In this document: one piece after another, positions 26,567 through 42,140 of the stretch
How positions within the stretch are numbered: position 1 is the first letter of the stretch
Layout of the letters: each line of letters begins with the position of its first letter
Assembly (NCBI GenBank): GCA_033439295.1
Contig: JAVTLE010000023.1
Span: forward strand, 1,834,530 to 1,898,529
Origin: Deuterostichococcus epilithicus
Lineage: Eukaryota; Chlorophyta; Trebouxiophyceae; Prasiolales; Stichococcaceae
Direction: 5' to 3'
Length of the DNA: 64,000 bases
The notes under the pieces: generated by a model
What the model was told of the DNA's origin: nothing
The model's database searches: none
What the model saw: the letters and a program-made list of their open reading frames with translations, nothing else
Position numbers and translations under genes: made by a program

Positions 26567-29500
26567 TCAGTCCGCTTTCACCGATCGGAAGACGTGTTTC
26601 ACAAAAGCCAGCGACGCCTGCATGTGCAGCGGCAACGAGGTGGTTAGCGTGCCATCTTGCGTCAGCGTTTCGCCAGAGATGACAAGCAACAAGTCCGACT
26701 CACCCGCCAGCCGATGGTGCCTGCAGATGGAGCAGCAGCACCATGTGTCAGCATGAGTTGTCCGTGTGCAACTTTCTCCTCAGTCATGGCTGAGCAAGGG
26801 TGTCGCCTTCAACAAAATCGCAAGGTCGCATAACTACTTGCAGACATCTTACCCAGCATCAAGAACAGCCCTGCGGACACAAGCGACGAAGCAGTCAGTG
26901 GTCGCACATCCAACAGATCCTGTCCCAGAAATGCTGAGCATAAGCGAAGGAGGTCAACCGCCTCACCATAGCAGATGCAGGCTTCCCAGCCAAAGAAAAA
27001 CGCCGTCTGCAATACACCGACAGATGCCACTGCATCAGCTGTGCCATGTCCTCATTGACAAAGGGTCAACACACTCAACACAGAACGCCAAGGGGGCCAA
27101 CAGTGCACCTGCATGAACCCGTTCATGTCGCTGCGCCAGGCGTAGTAGTAGAAACAGTAGCCGTACACAAACAGGCCTGCGTGAAACCTCCAGCGCTAGC
27201 CTGAGTACTGATGCTGTTGCTAGATGATGCGACATGGGCTGGCAAAGGGTTGGTTCCCGGTCAGCCGATGAGTGGAGTTGAAACGGATCTGTCAGAGAAG
27301 CCAGCCAGGAAGCAGCAGCGACTACTTTGAGAGTGCCACCTGTGGAGCCGCCGCAGAGGAAGGACCGCCACCACCAGCGGTGGTCCTCGACTGCCAGCTG
27401 AAAGTAGGTCAGCGCGATCGTGATAAACGCCGTGACGATTATCAGGATGAGAAACACGATGAAGAGGATGCTGTAGATTGTATAGACCTGCAGGCGGACA
27501 TAGTAGTCCTGCTTGAATTTCTCACAGCAGCGCCTCACCAGAGACAACCAGCAGGCAATTTAGACGAACTCCGATAGCCGGCAGGTTCTGATGGCTCACC
27601 TTGTGGCCCCACATGCTGCTGAACACGTAGAACAGCTCGATGTAGATGGCCGAGAATGGCAGGAAGCCTGCAGTGGCATGCCACGGTTGTTGTTACTGGC
27701 CCTGCCTTTGTCTGACGACTTGACGATGGCCCATGGGCCAGGCGATGCAGCACTCCCAAGCCCAGCTGGATGACGTCATATCGCACCTGCCATGACCATC
27801 TGCGGCACTGTCCCCCGGTACCACGGCAGCGATGGCACCTCCCTCGGGTACCTGTTGCGTCAGCCGGCCATGGTGATTGAAATGCGCTTACCACAGGGAT
27901 TGGGATGTGTATTACTTCCTGATCTGAGGGAGTCCCGGTTTGTCACGTCACAGATGCCCTTCAAGCCGTTTAAGAGTCAGCAATGGCGCACTTGGTGGTG
28001 CGGGTCGGCGGGTTGAACTCCATGCGCGTATTCTTGCCAGTAATTCCGCCCAGCACCGTCAGCGGGAATGTCACCTGCAGAAGACCTTTCCTCCGGCATC
28101 TTTCAAGAATTGCGGGTCAGCCCGCTTGAGTATAATGGAATCGAGAGTGTGCATGAGCCCATAATCATCAACATGGCATGAGCTCAATGGCATGCAGCGG
28201 GTCCAGACCCGCGACGCGCCGTCGGGCAGCAGGCACAGCCGGCCGAGAACGCAGGGCACAGCGGGCATCATCAGCGCACCAGCGCCCATATGAAGAAGAT
28301 GATACAGATGGTACCGAAGGGTAGCGCGGCGCTCGAGCGGTAGGCGATGGCCACGGTGTTCAGGAAGGAGAAGGTGACCAGCAGCGGGCCACAGAACAGC
28401 GTGGTCGTGAACAGCACGTTGCGCACCCAGGCGGTGCCGCCAAACATCTTGTACTGCGCCCCCGACACGTACCCCGCCACGCCTGCAGTGGCAGCACAAG
28501 CAAGCGCAAATGATGGAGTCTTCCACCTGCATCGACGGATAGTCTCCGCCCCACTGGCAGTGCCATCACCGTGGGCCGCGGCCGGCCCTTTGTGGCGGAG
28601 CCGCAGCCCGTGAACGATGCCTTTGTTGCTTGTTCAGCTCATGCTGCTGACACCCTCCCAAAGCTCGCTGACAGGGTGCAGGGCTGTTTCGGCAATTCCA
28701 GGTGCCATTGCAGCCTTGACATGAGTCGAATTTTGGTGCATGAAGCCGCAGGCAGCATCAGTAGACCTTGTGAACGGTATACGGACGCCTTGCAATGTGT
28801 CCTGACGGACCCACAAGCACCATGTGCGTAGCCTGCGATATCCCCACGGTCACGCATCATGGACCCTAAATTCCCGACTTCAAGAAGCGAACAACCCTCT
28901 TGAGCATGATTTGCCTTGATGGGCCTCCTGCACCAGTGCAAAACCCTGAGCATGCAACCCACCGGCGGTGACGGCGTACAGGACGATGACGGAGGAGAGC
29001 AGGGCGCCGCGGGAGTAGGGGTAAAAGTTGCCCGCCAGCGCCATCGCGAAGATCAGCAGCGTCATCACCAGGATCTGCGTTCCACTGCCCACCATGGCGG
29101 CAAAGAGATTGCTGTGCGGCGGGAAGCGGAACACGTCGCCGTGCAGCAGCTTCCACCCCGTCTCCTCCGCGTCATCTGCTGCGGGGCAGCAGTGCGCGGT
29201 CCGAGCGTCAGCATGCGGCCTCCAACAACGTTTTAACTTTCAACTGCCTTCGACAGTAGCTTTCTTGTTCTTGGTGTGAGGTGATCGGCACTCCTCAGTG
29301 GGCAAGCCAGGCGGCAGCAGCAATGCAGGCGCGCACATCAGTCTGTCCTTTTGGCCCTGGAAGGCACAAACGGTGCACCCACCGGCCTCCTCATCGCGGA
29401 ATCGAGCGAAGTCGTTCTTGAGGACACGCATCAGGATGGTGGCCAGGAAACCCGTCAGCAGCAGCACCGTTACGCAGCTGTTGATGATGCTGAACCAGTG

Positions 29501-33144: not shown

Positions 33145-36100
33145 TCACCAGTCCATCAGCCGCTGCCGCGCCTGGAGCAGCGTGTCCAGCCGCTTCGATG
33201 CGGACATGCGCGAGAAGAGCACGGCGCACTCGCCGTTCTCGCACACGACGGGGCCTAGCATCCCGCCGCTGTGGCAGCGCACACACGTGGACGTAGCCAG
33301 CCGCTGCCGCTCCCGCGCGACGTTGATGCGGTCTGTCAGGCCCAGCCACACCTGCGCGGCGAGTTCGCGTCATGGGCGGCCAGGCAGCTGCATCTTGGGT
33401 AAGGCCTCCGGCTGGGTTCATCGCCAGGCAAGAGGGCACAACTCCTGCAGGTGAAGGAGCGTACAACATGACAAGCAGGGACTCACCGTGGCAGCCTTGC
33501 CCTCCTCCGCGGCGCAGAACTCGCACAGCGCCGGCTCGGCGCCGCCCGCCCGCGCTTCGACTGTCCGCTTGCAGCCGCCCAGGCACCGCACCTGTCGCAT
33601 GTTACACCCAAAACTGTTTGCAGACCATGCAAGCAACGTAGCAATTCTACCGTCACGAGGATGATGGAGTATGACCTGCTGAAGAACAGCACTTCAGCTA
33701 GAGGCACCAGAAGCGTCGCGCACGGGGAACCCGAACCTTGGAGCGGAAGAAGGTCTTGAGCGCGGTCTGCTTGCCGCTGCCTTTGCCACTGGACGGCGCC
33801 GCCTGTGTGCCCGCAAAGGTGGGGTCCTCGCGTGCCGCCGTGTGCGGCCCCGTCAGCAGCGCCTGGATGGGCGCCACAACCGAGCGACTGCCGAGGGAGC
33901 ATTGCGATGCAGTGGTGATGTCATGGGCCGCGGCGCTCATTCTGCAGGTGCGGGGCTGTCTGCCGGCCCGGTTGCGGCACAGGAGCTCCTGCCGTGCCAG
34001 CAGGCAGAGTCCACATCTGCAAGAGGCGCAAGCGACACATGCAGGGTGACACACAGCGCTCCTGCTGGATCACCTGCAGCTCAGCGTGCGACAGGCACGT
34101 AGCGAACAGCTCCTTGATGGATGCAGCGACCTTGTTCTTGAAGTACAGCTCGGCTGCGCCGGTGGCGCCTGCCTTAGCAGCGGTCAGGGGGTCCTCACTA
34201 GCGTCATCCTGCAGGGAAAGCGACTTTCCATGAGTGGTTTTCGGGCCTCGGTGGTTGCTTGCACATCTCGTGGTTCCTGCATTGCGCATGGCTGATCCGT
34301 GAGACATGGTGCCAGTGGCGGGCATGGATACGACAGGCTGAGCAGCCCCGTGAGCCCAGTAAGCGCAGGAAGGGAGGACAGCCATGGCGGGTGAACCAAA
34401 TTGCTCGCCTGCAGGCGGGTGCCCGGCAGCAGCACATACTGGATCCTTTGACCCAGGACGAAGGTGCGGCCGGGGTCACGCGCCGCCATCCGGGCCGCCA
34501 GCGCCGCGTGGGGTCCCCGCATCTCCTCGCCGCTCCCTGACCGCCATAGGTGACGACACGTCAGGGCTTGGTTGTCGAACGTCGTTTTGCAGCACGTGGT
34601 AGCGCGAGCATGGTTGTGGAGGATTTGATGTCGTCCAGGAGGAGCGTCACGCACAAGCCCAGCCACTGGGGCATGCTCAGGTCCTGACAACGAACTCGGC
34701 ACATCTGCTGAAACCTGCGTCTTGGCGCACAGGCCGATTTCTGGAGCAACAACGCTGCCGGCCTTACCTTCGGCAGCAGACGCAACCTGGCTCCCTGTCA
34801 CTCGCCACAGACCACCAGTCTGGATCAGTTCGCTCAGCTCGCAGCCGCCGCTGAGCAGCCGCCTCACCTCTTCCTCCACCCACCTCATTGCCGCCTGTAG
34901 GGTCCAACAAGCACGGCGTTCGAACCCAGCTCAGGCACCGCAGAACGCGCAAGCCAGGAGCCGCGGCGCGGTCGCAGGTGTGCTGCAATCTCGATGCTGC
35001 AGCTCCAGCAAACACGACCGGCGACACGGAAACGGAGTTTGGGCAGACCATCCTTTCATATTCATTTTTTGGGGGGGGGACCACTCGGCCTTACAGTGAG
35101 TCGCCGGCACCTATCCTTTCACGTTTTCTTTCTAGAAAGAAGGCAGCTCGGTTAGCCACGCGGCCTTACAGCGAGTCGCCGGCACCTATCCTTTCATGTT
35201 TTTGTTTAATAAAGAGAAGGCAGCTCGCTTAACCACTCGGCCTTACAGCGAGTCGCCGGCACCGCCTGCATCTCCGTCCTTCCGTATATTCTGTTTGAAA
35301 AGAAGGTGAGAAAGAATAGGCGCCTCGGCCTGCAGCGAGTCGCCGACACTTCCATCCTTTCGTGGTTTCTATTTGACAAGAAGGCAAGAAAGGATAGTGT
35401 CAGGCCTGAATGATTCGCCCTCAGAGCGACACAGGTCTGGGCAGGTTGGGCTGCGGCAGCGCACCGGGACGTCGTCCTGCAGGATGATGCGGCGCACGGC
35501 GCCGCCCAGCGTCGTTCGGAGGATGCCGGGACTCATCCGCCAGATGGACTTGAGGCCCTTGACCAGCAGCTGGGCCTTGCCCTCCCTCACGTCCTCCTCG
35601 GTCTCGAAGCTGCGCCCTGCAGCGCACATGCCGACCGGAGATTCATCATCGACCGCGGCGCTCGAAGCGCGCAGAAGGTCGTGCGTTGCCATCGACGCGG
35701 GCACCCAGGGTGTGGCCGTCTGCAGAATGGTCGTGTTCCCGGCGCGCCTGCATATCGGTTGACGTGCAGCAGCAGGAACGGCGACAGGACCTGTGAGGGT
35801 GCCACAAACACGACCGTCAGCGGGCATGATCGCTGCATCTCGAGGGTTCCACAGCCAGACAAAACGGGATATGAGGACACGAGGCACAACAGCAACGTCA
35901 CCTTCTCAAACTTCAGCTCCATCTCAGGTGGGAAGGCGGCAGAGACGAGCTGGCCCGCCTGCATCGAGGGCGCATCCGACAAACACTGAAGTGGTGTCAT
36001 GAGTTGCTGCGTGCTCGGCTTGGCACGCTGGGCAAGCATGTGGGTCCAGGCGCACGCAGTGCAGCATCAAGCATGTGCTGCGACTGGAACACCATGCGCA

Positions 36101-39100
36101 GTGCGCCGATCAGCCACCCATCACTGGTGGACTGTGATCAAGTCCGCAGAGTGTCCCACCTGCCGCCCCACAGAGACGGCCTCCAGGGGGCTGCAGTCTG
36201 GGAGGTGCACGAAGATGCTGTCTGTCTGGCCGTAGATCACCCGCGCAGTCTTCCCGTTGGGCCCCAGCTTGCCTGCGCCAGCCAGGCTGCCTTCAAGCAG
36301 GCGCCGGGCGCGCTGAACTGTCACACGCGACGCCGAGACTGGAGGCCTCGCCGGGCGCGGCTGTCAAGTGTTGGGCCTGCCTCGCTGGTGCTGGTCCTCG
36401 TTACAGACAGCCAAGGCCGTTTCATGGCAAACAAGCCAGCTCGAGAGAGTGCCGGAGCTTGGTGCGCGCACCGTCTGCAGCCAGCTCGTGCAGCACCTCG
36501 ATCGCGCGGCGCGTCGAGGCGGCTCCCATGGCTAGGCACGAGTCCGCCAGCGGCAGGCACTGCAGCATGGACGTCTGGGCGCCCGTGAAGCCGTACAAAG
36601 CGTTCGCCGTCAGCTGCGTGTCGACAAGTGGCAAGTCTTGCGACTGCTGCAGCTGCCAGGCGGCGCTTGCCGAGTGCTGGCTCCATCAAATCGTGCTGGC
36701 AGGACTTGCCAGGTACAGCTGGTTCTTCGAAAAAACAGGGTGCAGCAGCCGCGGCTTGCTCAGACGGCTGCCAGGTCTGTCTCTGAAGCTGCAGCGGTGC
36801 TGGACCCTGTCAACCACTTCGAGACACGGTCGGAGGAGCTGGGTGGACCTTGAGAGCTTTCTGCCGGCTGTCGAGGACGGCTCGCCGCGCCGGGTCGGTC
36901 GTGTCCTTCAGCACTGCGCGCGTCGCCGTCCGCGCCCGGATCAGTGCCGCCAGGATGCTCGGCAACACGCCCTTGCGCAGGCCAGGCTTTACAAACTTGT
37001 CGCCTGCGATGATGGGCACGAGTTGAGAGTCTTCGTGTCCGAACCGCTCTGAGGATCTGCGACGCAGCTTGTTGCTGTCAAGCAGGGGCAGCGTGCACGC
37101 GCACGATGACGCTGGGCATGCCAGGGGCGCAATGCCCCGACCTGTGGGGGTGGTGGTGACATCATCCGGAGGCAAGCCTGCGACGTCGTCGGGGTGCAGC
37201 AGCGTCGTGAAGCACAGGTTGTACGCCCGGAACAGCGAGGGGTACCTGCCGCACATCGACCATGGCCCACGAGTCAGCACCTGCTGCACCGCTTGTCACA
37301 AAGCCGCGGGCGCCGGCGCCCCCCACGCCCTGCTGCTGCCTCGACCTGGACGCACATGCTTGCTATGCCGAAGGAGCTGAGGTGGCAGGGCTGCCCAGCC
37401 GCATGTGAGCAGGATCCGGCCTGCCGACCCCATGTGCGCCGGCGGCAGAGGAGCTACTACAGAGTGTCAGACGCTCCTCCAGGCATGTGCGACAGCTCGA
37501 GGCAGGTGCCAGGGGCGCGCACAGGCTGGCGAAGTCGAGGACGCAGACGGGGGAGCGGTGGAGGCCCACGGTGCCCGCCTCCACCGGGTGCAGCAGGAAT
37601 GGCGACTCGGACAGCTGCTGCGGGTCCACGCGGCCGCTCACCATGTAGCCCTGACGCCGGGCATTGCGCAGCAGCAGGCTCCACGTGCGGATCATCTGCA
37701 GCAGGGTGTTCAAAACCCAGTTCGTCGACTTGCTCTGAACACAAAACCTCCCTTGATGTTCATGGGCGATCCGATTCGAGCTTTCCAGATGTGATGCAGC
37801 ACACGAGCGGGTGCGTCCCAACGTATGCGGCCGGACTCGTGATTGCTGGGCCTCGCGGCAGCATCACACGAGCGCAGTCGGGGCGAAGGCGACACAGCGC
37901 GCGCATGCGCAGCGCCGGCCCGACAGGGCACCCATGGCCCAGGGCTGGGGCAGCACCTGCGCATTGTAGAGCACATTGGCCAGCGTGAGGCCCGTCGCGC
38001 GTGCCAGCTCGATGGACTCTGGCACCGTGGCCATGCGTCCCAGCAGTGCGATGACGGCGCCGGCACGCGTCGCCGAGTATGCCGCCAGCCGCGCCGCGCC
38101 CGCCTCTGGGTCGAACCTGCCGCACAGCAGCAGCACGTCCTTGTGCACTGGAACCCTGTTTGAGGTGCTGTGAAGAGATATTTGAGGGGACCCAGGCCTG
38201 GTTCGCGTGGCCGATGTCGACCTGAGACTTGCGGCCAGCGGGGAGAAAGACCTCGAAGCATCGGAGGCATGCCAATTGTCAGGCACTGCAATGCTGGAAC
38301 GGCGGCTTTGTTGCAGATCCAAACAACTGCATCTGTCATGCTTCCGGAGGGATGCTCACGGGACGGACGCTAGCGGCGGCGTCGGTGGGGCGAGGCCCGC
38401 CAGCGAGGCGGCGGAGGAGGGCGGCAGCACCTCCAGGCGCCGCCCCAGCAGCGACTGGCAGGCGTCCACCAGGCTGAAGCTCGCCAGCGTGCAGTTGGTC
38501 AGGATCTGCGAGAATGGTCGAAGAGCCGCGGATCAGGGGCGTGCGCCCGGGCCCAGCCCGATCAGCCTCCTGCCCTGAAAAGCGTCAGAACAACAGGCGC
38601 AACAGCTCCGGCTGCATGCCGGCCTGCATGTATGGCAAGCTCGTTTGCAGATCACATTGGCTTGGACACCTCGTGCTCCAGACGGAAAGGATGCAATAGG
38701 ATGCGGCACCTGGCGCAGCAGGTCGAACACAACACGCCCCTCGATGTCAGCTCTGTACGTCTCTTGGTTGCTGGTGCTGGTCATTCGGCTCTGGCTGCGC
38801 ACCCAGTTGGCGTTGTACTGCGTCACCTTTTTCACCGTCACCGGCCGAGCGGAAAGGCCCTGCACACCAGAGAGGCCATGCGTGACCACAAGGAACTGCT
38901 ACTTCGGCGTCAGCCTGGTCAGCGAACAAGCGTGCAATGAGGACACCAATCGTTCTCAGGCCGCTCCCAGCCAGTCAGGGGCAGAAGACAGGTGCGCCGG
39001 GGCAACGATGGCACAGGTGTGGCCAGGCCGGGTGTGCAAGGGGCGCCGACCTGAAGGCGGGAGATGGGCAGCCCGCCGCCATCGATCTTCAGGGCCCTGA

Positions 39101-42100
39101 ACCGCTCCTGCAGCGCTCCCAGCGTGTCCTTCACCTGGGCGCCAGCACAGCTCGACGACATCAGCTGATGTCACGAGTCGCGCCGGAGGCATCACATGCA
39201 CTGCTGTTGCCGCGTGAGAGGCAGTGGCGCAAGGGTTTGGCACTGCAAGCCTGCACTCTACAGCAATCACACCCCTGTCAGTGGCGCACCTCGAACAGCA
39301 CGAAGGCGTCTGGGTCCTGCTGCTGGACGTAGGTGCGCCAGGCGAGCAGCAGGTCGCGCTCTGAGGCGAAGTGCCGCACTTTTGCGCCGTGCACCCGGTC
39401 CGTTAGCTCCCCCGCCTCACAGTCTCGCGCCAGCAGGAACACCACCTGCAATGGGGACACAGCCGGGCTGGCACCGCTGCTTGGTTGAAGCCCTTGAACA
39501 GGGTGGAGGTTACGTCTGCGGCGGAACAGGATCAGCGAAATCTCTGAAGCGTGCCGACCACGGCAGGATCCGCAAAGCACGCCAGGCGGACAACAGGATG
39601 ATAGATGGAGTCTGGGCCCACAGAGGAGGGGTTGGTGCCTGCTGCGACTGAGTCTACGCAGCCGCCAATCACCTTGTCCCGCGCATGCGCCGTGTCCTGC
39701 AGCACGTCGCTGACCCCGCCGGCAGTCACAGGATCCTCTGAGGGGCCTTCCACCTGGGTCTGCCCTGCCCCTTCCTGCCAGACGCAGCATCATCGATAAG
39801 CAATTCTAGCCGGAGTGCAGCATGCGCCACATGCTGTGGGCGCATCGAGCAGTGTATCTGTCTGGGTGACAGTTCCTCAGCAGCAACGACGAGGCTGCAG
39901 CATCCTTGCGCCCGTTCCACCAAGTGATCTCAGCCAGCTCACCTCGCCGTCGTCATCGAAGCCGGCTTCCTCTGTCAGGCCCTCGAGGCGTGGCCCGGTC
40001 TGGCTGGCGGAGGGCGCGGCGGCAGCCGCGTCGCCAGAGCTGTGCACGATGCAGGTGACTGCCACGATGGGATCCTCGCTCAGCACTGGCACCCTGCGGC
40101 ATCAGCCAGGGCGTAGTATACCTTGCAGTTGCGAGGGGCAACTCCCTTGCAGTTGCGAGGGGAGACTCACTTCGCATCGCAGATGCGTGGCTGCAGGTGC
40201 AGAGGCTTGGCGTTGAGACTGCAAGCCTGCAAAGCAGCTGCAGTACGGACCTGTCTTTGCCATCGCGGGGACAGGCGACGACGTCCAACGTCATGAGCTT
40301 GAGAACCGCGATGTCACCCGCCATCGCTTTGGCTGCCGCTGAGTCCCAGGCCTCTGCTGCGCTGCCTGCAGCTTTGTAAGGTGCGACCTGATCACGTTTC
40401 GACAGGGAGCGTCGCCAAAGGCAGTGCAGTCCTCATGAGAAGACAGATAGAAGGGGTGGAGGCGAGTTTGTCGATGAAACATGTGGTCGGCACATCACCT
40501 TGCAGCCCCTGCGGCATCGCCGGCTGCCACGCTGCTTCGGCCAGCTGCGTTGCGTCGGGCGTGAGGCACTGCAGCGCCTGCCAAGGGGCCTCCACCTCCA
40601 CGGCGCAACTTGAGATGCGCTCCCGCGCCCCCACAGAGCCAGGCTCTGCAGCCTCTGCTGTGCCGGCGCAGCTGCGCGGGACGTGCAGCCAGGCCCCTGC
40701 CGTGCAATCACGGGCTTGCTGAGTGGCACGAGAGGAGTGTGACGGCCTGTATCTTCTTCAAACACACTGCTTATCCTTTCCCCACAACGCACCTCCAGAG
40801 ACGGGGACGTCCACCAGAAAGCGCTGCAGCAGGTTTACCTGTGAAGCACAGGGATGCAAGTGTATGACAGCCTGAAGACTCAGTCCACCAGCCGTGCAGC
40901 ATCAGTCGACTCCATCCTGATGCCTCAAACAGTTGAAACAGCAGCTCAGCATCCATACAACATTTTCCAAGACACTGGTTGAACAGACCTCGTGCTCGTA
41001 GAGCGTGCTGTCGTGGACCTGGAACCCGTTGGACCGCAGCAGCTCCGCCTTCAGCAGCTTGTGCACAGCACTCGACGCTTTTCGCAGCGACCCGCCTAGC
41101 GCGAGCGTGGCCTGCGCAGAGCAAAGCCTGACTTCTGCACGGTGCCAGAACCAAAAGCAGGCTGACCAAGGAAGTTGATGGTCTACTGATCTGCGGGCGA
41201 GGCAGACAAGAGAAAGCACAAGAGCACACTGACCCGCAGCGCCGGCACGCGACCCGGCCTTTTAGGCCGGTAGAACATGATGGGCGTGCGCTCCTCCGGC
41301 GTCAGGCTGCTGATCCGGCTGTCAGGTGGAATCGACCTGCGGGCGCACGATGCTAGCCATCGGATGTCACAGCAGGTACACAGAAGGTTTGATCAAATGT
41401 GCTGACGCCGCCACAGCCAGGAACGGGCACGACAGAGGCACCTGTTGAGCAGCTGCATCAGCACTTCCAGCGCCTCTGGTGAGAGCTCTCCCTCCTCTCC
41501 CTGTGTGACAGACTGTTAAAAGCATTGCCTGGTGTTGTGACAAAGCCACAAAAGCCACAAACAAATTGTGCACGATTGCAAGCTCAGCCTGTTGGCGAGA
41601 TGTGTCCGCAACCGCCGAATGTTGGTGCTTGCACCGCTGCAAAATGCAACTTGGTCTGGCGCACAGCATGCGCATCAGCATTCCGGAGAGAAATCTTGCC
41701 TGCCGGGTGGGCGCAGCCATGAGGAAGTATGGCCGGAAGTCATTCACACGCACGAGCACACTCGCCCCCTCCGCGGAGACACCCCATAGGTGGAACCGAC
41801 CGTTCGGTTCCTCGTCGATTTGTGTCACCATGAAGCACAAGTTGCCCTCATCTTGCTGCCCCTGTGTGCTGCCTGCAGGATCTGCTCCCTCCTGATGCCT
41901 GCAGTGCGGCGCATGACTGGCGTCAGTGATTTGGCTAAGTCCGCGTGAGGCAGGAGAGGGGGAACTCTGGCTGCAGCTGGGGCATTTCTGCAAGCGCGAC
42001 ATGGCTCCTTGGGCTGGGAGGGGCGCTGGGCGACACCTTGAACCTGCTGCGGGTCCATCATGCAGCGGCGCATCCGGCGAGCGCTTCGGGAAAGACTGTC

Positions 42101-42140
42101 TGTATCCTGGTTTGCGGCTCCGAAACAGCAATTCTGACAT
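33145..42140 (-). CDS. DNA polymerase delta catalytic subunit-like protein with degraded active sites
   Basis: Starts at 42140 (MSELLFRSRK) and covers 9 kb in some 20 exons. The N-terminal domain reads LCFMVTQIDEEPNGRFHLWG and RVNDFRPYFLM, like POLD1 RLFGVTEEGHSV...GFAPYFY. Next are GFQVHDSTLYEHEV, the exonuclease-like domain (LKLMTLDVVACPRDG; ASERDLLLAWRTYVQQQDPD; ADIEGRVVFDLLRQ; LAAYSATRAGAVIALL), motif A VLDFASLYPSLFRAYNLCF, FVKPGLRKGVLPSIL, motif B LTANALYGFTGA, motif C VIYGQTDSIFV, ELKFEKV, LLLHVNRYAG, VKGLKSIWRM and the thumb. The C-terminus keeps CysA (CLGGC...CEFC) and CysB (CVRC...CENGEC). Lost or changed residues: Exo I DIE to DVV (40285-40277), Exo III Asp to Arg (38067-38065), YGDTDS to YGQTDS (36228-36226), KKRY to VNRY and IETVRRD to LKSIWRM. 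The motif A Asp (37536-37534) remains. Exon order and splice phases look sound, so this is an expressed-type gene, not debris. REV3 is the main alternative, but the N-terminus favours POLD1. Confidence 0.85.
35045..35420. repeat. Minisatellite, about 75-88 bp period, inside a polymerase-like intron
   Basis: Four main units begin with CGGCCTTACAG or a close variant at 35086, 35161, 35238 and 35326, flanked by partial units at about 35045 and 35403. Each contains GAGTCGCCGGCACC and most contain TATCCTTTC plus a purine-rich AGAAGG segment. The unit centred at 35126-35141 has a perfect 16-nt palindrome (TTCTTTCTAGAAAGAA), and a run of nine G lies at 35071-35079. Read on the minus strand (sense of the host gene) the units contain GGCCGAGTGGTTAAG, like the D-arm of tRNA-Ser/Leu. 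Confidence 0.85.
40121..40162. repeat. Two-copy 24-bp direct repeat in a polymerase-like intron
   Basis: The segment CCTTGCAGTTGCGAGGGG occurs at 40121 and again at 40145, a period of 24 bp. It lies between the exon that ends in the Exo I segment and the next one. Confidence 0.7.

Follow-up and report, generated by a model that had tools for sequence, protein, structure and literature searches.

A POLD1-like gene of a green alga with disrupted exonuclease motifs and an altered polymerase motif C

Does a Pol delta-like protein with changes in both active sites still synthesize DNA? This question is raised by a single intact delta-like B-family polymerase gene of the green alga Deuterostichococcus epilithicus, located on the minus strand of a 64,000-nucleotide stretch of contig JAVTLE010000023.1 (assembly GCA_033439295.1), which is hereafter called the window and provides all positions given below. 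The gene runs from the ATG at 42140 to the TGA at 33145 and comprises 28 exons with a total of 4041 nt and 1346 codons (1346 aa), with phases consistent throughout and the terminal stop as the only one. A first-pass annotation had described a full-length POLD1-like gene that has lost catalytic residues of both active sites. The gene itself was confirmed: our spliced model, aligned to the Pol delta sequences of human and yeast and then checked by hand, matches the annotated span exactly and extends from the N-terminal domain to the C-terminal cysteine modules, the gene structure being a prediction with exon ends chosen by homology. The observed sequence changes were confirmed as well, the interpretation as a pseudo-polymerase is partly supported, and the headline of two lost active sites proved to be overstated.

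Active sites and C-terminal domain

The motifs relevant for the function of the protein are the following, with residues numbered as in POLD1.

40291-40259 (exon 7, 40251-40365), minus strand: Exo I, LDVVACPRDG; POLD1 DIE reads DVV, D316 kept, E318V
39111-39298, minus strand: Exo II region, LFE/VKDTLGAL across intron 10; catalytic Asp D402 aligned with Thr
38059-38079, minus strand: Exo III, YSATRAG; catalytic Asp D515 replaced by Arg
37236-37542, minus strand: motif A, VLDFAS/LYPS across intron 15; metal-ligand Asp D602 kept
36578-36866, minus strand: motif B, RQKALK/LTANALYGFTGA across intron 17; K694, N698, Y701 and G702 kept, S699A
36217-36240, minus strand: motif C, VIYGQTDS; D755 replaced by Gln (CAG, 36228-36226), metal-ligand D757 kept
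35902-35913, minus strand: KFEK; Glu aligned with human E795 kept
35615-35766, minus strand: KKRY block, HVNRYAG across intron 21; K806V, K807N, RY kept
35531-35557, minus strand: VRRD block, GLKSIWRMS; V832I, R833W, D835M, R834 kept
33746-33769, minus strand: PCNA-interacting peptide (PIP) box, QTALKTFF; full consensus Qxxhxxaa as given in PMC7048817
33514-33585, minus strand: CysA-type zinc module, CLGGC...CEFC; first spacing x3, not x2
33226-33285, minus strand: CysB-type module, C-x2-C-x10-C-x4-C; cysteines kept

At the exonuclease site, one of the four DEDD residues is retained (D316). Because the other three are replaced (E318V, D402T, D515R), 3'-5' proofreading is almost certainly lost. 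With regard to this site the annotated loss held, including YSATR in Exo III and the change of DIE to DVV; D316 within DVV is itself kept, however, and the Exo II replacement had not been mentioned. As a separate observation, exons 8 and 9 (40093-39943 and 39774-39559) encode an insertion of ~100 aa in the exonuclease domain, which is of low complexity, partly acidic, and absent from POLD1.

At the polymerase site, YGQTDS in motif C and the altered KKRY and VRRD-type blocks (VNRY, IWRM) were found as annotated, as was the survival of LDFASLYPS and, within motif B, of NALYGFTGA. Retained residues comprise D602, F603, S605, L606, Y607, R667, K694, N698, Y701, G702, D757, and E795; the changes are D755Q, K671R, S699A (the equivalent being Val in Rev3), R725A, K806V, K807N, R833W, and D835M. 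On sequence evidence, the two aspartates that serve as metal ligands (D602, D757) are kept, as are most residues of the deoxynucleoside triphosphate (dNTP) site, with K671R and S699A as exceptions. The claim that this site has lost its catalytic residues is thus not established, because the metal ligands are present, the first Asp of motif C is not a ligand in yeast Pol3, and enzymes without this residue are active. In the structure of yeast Pol delta with PCNA and DNA, as described in PMC7720213, D608 and D764 out of three conserved acidic residues coordinate both Mg2+ ions, and D762, the equivalent of the D755 changed here, is not an Mg2+ ligand. Sulfolobus Dpo2, carrying HxxxD for YxDTD, lacking an exonuclease and formerly regarded as inactivated, is reported in PMC8764526 to equal the replicase Dpo1 in activity, to extend mismatched and lesion-bearing ends proficiently, and to perform translesion synthesis. 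Primer-independent PolBs are likewise described as devoid of the first motif C Asp, yet highly active (PMC7544198). By analogy to these enzymes, D755Q need not abolish polymerase activity.

The C-terminal domain contains, by sequence, CysA, CysB, and the PCNA site of POLD1. New here, judged by the motif, is a consensus PIP box in the position of the degenerate box of human POLD1: QTALKTFF is aligned with GLLAFA (L1002, F1005) of human p125. A shuffled protein would contain the PIP pattern 0.035 times on average; it was observed once, on the POLD1 PIP site, and the reading frame of exon 26 is supported by TGPHT upstream of the box, which sits opposite RGDHT of human POLD1. According to PMC7048817, L1002 and F1005 of p125 enter the PCNA cleft, and mutating the box severely reduces activity; the yeast counterpart is given as GGLMSFI (PMC7720213), and CysB is described as the Fe-S site in Pol delta and Pol zeta (PMC7544198). 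We infer from these motifs that the protein would bind PCNA tightly and would also bind the B-subunit.

Specialized polymerase or scaffold

We favor a specialized polymerase over a dead scaffold and assign a probability of roughly 0.5 to the reading that the gene encodes a PCNA-tethered polymerase without proofreading, i.e., a strongly diverged delta/zeta catalytic subunit beside an ordinary POLD1 encoded elsewhere. The PIP box would clamp the protein to PCNA and CysB could pair it with the Pol delta B-subunit, and it would carry out slow synthesis without proofreading at distorted or damaged primer ends, after the manner of Dpo2 and Pol zeta. The altered KKRY/VRRD-type grip might loosen the checking of the primer end, thereby suiting the extension of distorted ends. 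In total, 30 of the 43 positions invariant across five active B-family polymerases are retained. Within palm and fingers, 27 out of 35 deep-invariant positions are retained versus 61 out of 125 Pol-delta-only positions (p 0.004) and versus 24 out of 48 invariant positions of the exonuclease domain, and positions identical in human and yeast POLD1 are kept more often in this region (88/160) than elsewhere (104/312; Fisher p 8e-6).

Several points weigh against a working polymerase. The exonuclease domain retained 24 of 48 positions invariant among human POLD1, yeast Pol3, and KOD versus 21 of 91 delta-only positions (p 0.002); since this dead domain shows the same trend, the retention of invariants partly reflects the fold, and deep-invariant retention alone was rejected as a proof of catalysis. 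Furthermore, all five reference polymerases share K806, K807, R833, and D835, which are lost here. VRRD contacts DNA, and other finger residues act in dNTP binding. KKRY is described as binding DNA (PMC3792054). The replacement of S699 by Ala has to be added; its Pol epsilon counterpart, a serine identified by our own alignment, is reported to pack on the nascent base pair (PMC3986358). In respect to the first motif C Asp, PMC7544198 mentions an earlier study in which S. solfataricus PolB2 was weakly active and considers that a conserved Asp elsewhere may stand in for the missing one in PolB2. The residue is a metal ligand in phi29 polymerase, according to a title cited in PMC8764526, and D621 of RB69 is counted in a “catalytic aspartate triad” that binds metal directly or indirectly (PMC3792054).

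A pseudo-polymerase with both activities dead, acting as a scaffold for PCNA and the B-subunit or as a competitor of Pol delta, is possible, if doubtful. The dead exonuclease, the combination of D755Q with the losses of K806, K807, R833, and D835, the weak activity stated in PMC8764526 for Pol alpha and viral enzymes mutated at the first Asp, and the retention of the consensus PIP box and CysB are all in line with it. It is opposed by the presence of both metal ligands and of a largely preserved dNTP site, as well as by the activity of Dpo2 and the primer-independent PolBs without the first Asp (PMC8764526, PMC7544198). The annotated comparison to the dead C-terminal half of Pol epsilon, also a diverged exonuclease-polymerase module in a eukaryotic replicative polymerase, is not supported: in that half, disruption of the exonuclease and polymerase motifs is described, with DIE as the exception (PMC2669801), whereas motifs A and B and the metal-binding Asp are kept here. 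If the protein is dead, it would represent a delta-type pseudo-polymerase that stands alone.

The likeness of the specialized polymerase to archaeal PolB2 (Dpo2) would be one in the mode of working and not of descent. Dpo2 has HxxxD in place of the YGQTDS found in the window protein and presumably lacks the Pol delta C-terminal domain. Shared by both are the losses of the exonuclease and of the first motif C Asp with the second one kept, and Dpo2, too, had once been predicted inactive (PMC8764526). PolB_SITDG of cyanobacteria and algae also has the first motif C Asp replaced, as described in PMC7544198; it is set apart by that description, a hydrophobic residue being found there and Gln in the window protein. 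The string YGQTDS itself did not occur in the open-access literature searched. The natural exchange of D to Q in motif C, together with the loss of the KKRY lysines, offers a ready test of the role of the first Asp.

Placement between POLD1 and REV3

Pfam analysis of the spliced protein revealed DNA_pol_B (PF00136) with 250 bits (E 5e-74), the exonuclease domain with 51 bits, and zf-C4pol with 27 bits, just below its cut-off of 28.9. In phmmer comparisons with PDB chains, human POLD1 scored 309 bits over the whole sequence (best stretch 502-1165), yeast Pol3 243, yeast Rev3 130, herpesvirus polymerases 98, and Pol alpha up to 87. Identity amounts to 30.6% with human POLD1, 27.5% with yeast Pol3, and 23.3% with yeast Rev3, in comparison to 51.8% between human and yeast Pol delta.

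Similarity was further determined per segment as z against shuffles, with provisional sequences for human REV3L and Arabidopsis POLD1, a yeast Rev3 copy without the N-terminal domain, and a yeast Pol3 copy without most of the C-terminal domain. POLD1 was ahead in the N-terminal domain (17-24 vs -0.7 for the provisional REV3L), the exonuclease segment (18-26 vs at most 7.8 for REV3), palm and fingers (75-96 vs at most 66.6), the thumb (13.5-17 vs at most 4.6), and the C-terminal domain (human POLD1 13.6, provisional Arabidopsis POLD1 8.9, REV3 at most 4.8); a 56-residue piece around Exo I gave weak values for every reference (best 3.6). We place the gene product in the delta/zeta clade; by these scores, similarity favors POLD1 in each domain compared. 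The order of N-terminal domain, exonuclease, palm/fingers, thumb, and C-terminal domain, with the PIP site before CysA and CysB, is also that of POLD1/Pol3. In contrast, the lost exonuclease site, D755Q, the changed KKRY and VRRD blocks, and the consensus PIP box distinguish it from them. Because the active exonuclease and YGDTDS of POLD1 are missing, we classify the protein as POLD1-like within the delta/zeta clade and not as POLD1.

Trees do not separate POLD1 from REV3 ancestry. The approximately unbiased (AU) test accepted both a sister of POLD1 and a sister of REV3 in the first set (p 0.505 and 0.549), in two further tests (0.405 and 0.683; 0.739 and 0.470), and under LG+I+G4 and LG+C10 (0.53-0.56 and 0.55-0.60), the latter on a reduced set of rows with five topologies written by hand, two of which represent the same REV3 placement. 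In four of five tests, AU rejected a position outside the delta/zeta clade (p 0.013-0.038), accepting it in the 382-column test (0.133), and neither the Kishino-Hasegawa nor the Shimodaira-Hasegawa (SH) test rejected it in any of the five. As sister of the provisional Arabidopsis POLD1, the window protein was rejected by AU in four of four tests (p 0.006-0.019) and by SH in one of four. The tree rows consisted of sequences other than archaeal PolB2, those of human REV3L and Arabidopsis POLD1 being the provisional ones. With a length of about 1.3, the branch of the window protein is long, making long-branch attraction a real risk.

A scan of genome contigs with 261 aa of the window protein found no relative, and a POLD1-alignment scan of such contigs yielded 11 loci with archaeal titles and no algal relative; among five scans of viral contigs, one gave one locus, one gave three loci, and the other three none, all hits being distant. 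As annotated, a described POLD1 paralogue of this kind was not among the matches listed for the open-access literature, covering titles and abstract openings and leaving subscription papers mostly outside. PMC7544198 gives the number of eukaryotic B-family polymerases as four. Still more doubtful than the pseudo-polymerase, and advanced here tentatively, is the idea of a B-family lineage of eukaryotes in addition to alpha, delta, epsilon, and zeta, i.e., a delta/zeta-clade enzyme or pseudo-enzyme of a green alga which would have retained the metal site while losing proofreading and its usual hold on the primer, acquired a strong PCNA motif, and formed its own Pol delta-like complex. If the specialized polymerase is real, a PCNA-bound delta-type paralogue without proofreading would show that the set of four can be expanded by specialization.

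At first sight, the motif C context and the Exo III Arg give the protein a resemblance to REV3. That it is a diverged REV3 (Pol zeta) orthologue of the alga, for which exonuclease loss would be ordinary, is unlikely. This explanation can draw on the AU tests accepting both placements alike, on the Arg that yeast Rev3 likewise has at the Exo III position of D515, and on FE in place of YN as in Rev3. Like REV3, the window protein has an inactivated exonuclease, and error-tolerant synthesis is presumed for it. At 70 positions separating POLD1 from REV3, the protein shows the POLD1 state 19 times, the REV3 state 13 times, and neither 38 times; at 5 POLD1-derived sites the numbers are 3 and 2, and at 27 REV3-derived sites the POLD1 state (10) is met more often than the REV3 state (4). 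Apart from the higher similarity to POLD1 in every compared segment, the length at the place after GYTSA equals that of POLD1, without the REV3-type (FSGRMPC-type) insertion, and GFTGA is the POLD1 state. The protein also has no match to a provisional REV7-binding motif pattern, and its motif C is altered, unlike that of REV3.

It is very improbable that the gene is the sole POLD1 of the alga and hence a replicative Pol delta without proofreading, as its identity to human POLD1 is far below that of yeast Pol3, and the KKRY and VRRD losses would be hard to reconcile with bulk replication. A decaying pseudogene, to which the strong divergence and the long branch might point, is hardly credible in view of zero internal stops where 27 would be expected in 1346 codons at the intron stop-triplet frequency (P(0) 9e-13), CAG acceptors at 27 of 27 introns, and a GC content at third codon positions of 0.82 versus 0.60 in the introns.

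Gene structure and surroundings

The exons of the predicted gene are as follows.

42140-41700, minus strand: exon 1
41500-41442, minus strand: exon 2
41336-41234, minus strand: exon 3
41111-40989, minus strand: exon 4
40838-40793, minus strand: exon 5
40696-40499, minus strand: exon 6
40365-40251, minus strand: exon 7, including Exo I
40093-39943, minus strand: exon 8
39774-39559, minus strand: exon 9
39445-39290, minus strand: exon 10
39134-39051, minus strand: exon 11
38859-38710, minus strand: exon 12
38505-38360, minus strand: exon 13
38116-37957, minus strand: exon 14
37695-37523, minus strand: exon 15
37245-37142, minus strand: exon 16
37003-36849, minus strand: exon 17
36613-36472, minus strand: exon 18
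36272-36160, minus strand: exon 19, including all of motif C
35958-35902, minus strand: exon 20
35790-35748, minus strand: exon 21
35616-35465, minus strand: exon 22
34894-34768, minus strand: exon 23
34536-34409, minus strand: exon 24
34208-34074, minus strand: exon 25
33988-33737, minus strand: exon 26, including all of the PIP box
33591-33487, minus strand: exon 27
33351-33145, minus strand: exon 28

The 27 introns span 85-570 nt, with GT donors in 24 of them and GC donors in introns 1, 21, and 24 (donor positions 41699, 35747, and 34408). The donor of intron 21, gcgcgc, is weak and deviates strongly from the common GC-AG consensus, so that an exon end may be misplaced here; in our judgement, this donor and the acceptor of exon 26 are the least certain exon borders. 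A scan for bacterial-type promoters upstream of the gene detected nothing. Intron 22 (35464-34895) harbors a 77-bp tandem repeat in 2.4 copies (35080-35263), one unit of which contains GGCCGAGTGGTTAAG at 35228-35242, a pattern picked after being seen. We take it to resemble the A box of tRNA-Leu/Ser, a hint that the short repeat may derive from a tRNA.

The window consists of nuclear DNA of a eukaryote. Ten neighboring open reading frame pieces were scanned against Pfam, of which seven scored above the family cut-off (M41 peptidase, EMP70, acyl carrier protein, P5C reductase, SRP54-type GTPase, uroporphyrinogen decarboxylase, and ribosomal S17), one below (FAD synthetase), and two had no match. 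A tRNA-His was predicted by ARAGORN on the plus strand at 28565-28654; since it adjoins a minus-strand EMP70 exon piece (28964-29173), it perhaps lies inside an intron of the EMP70 gene.

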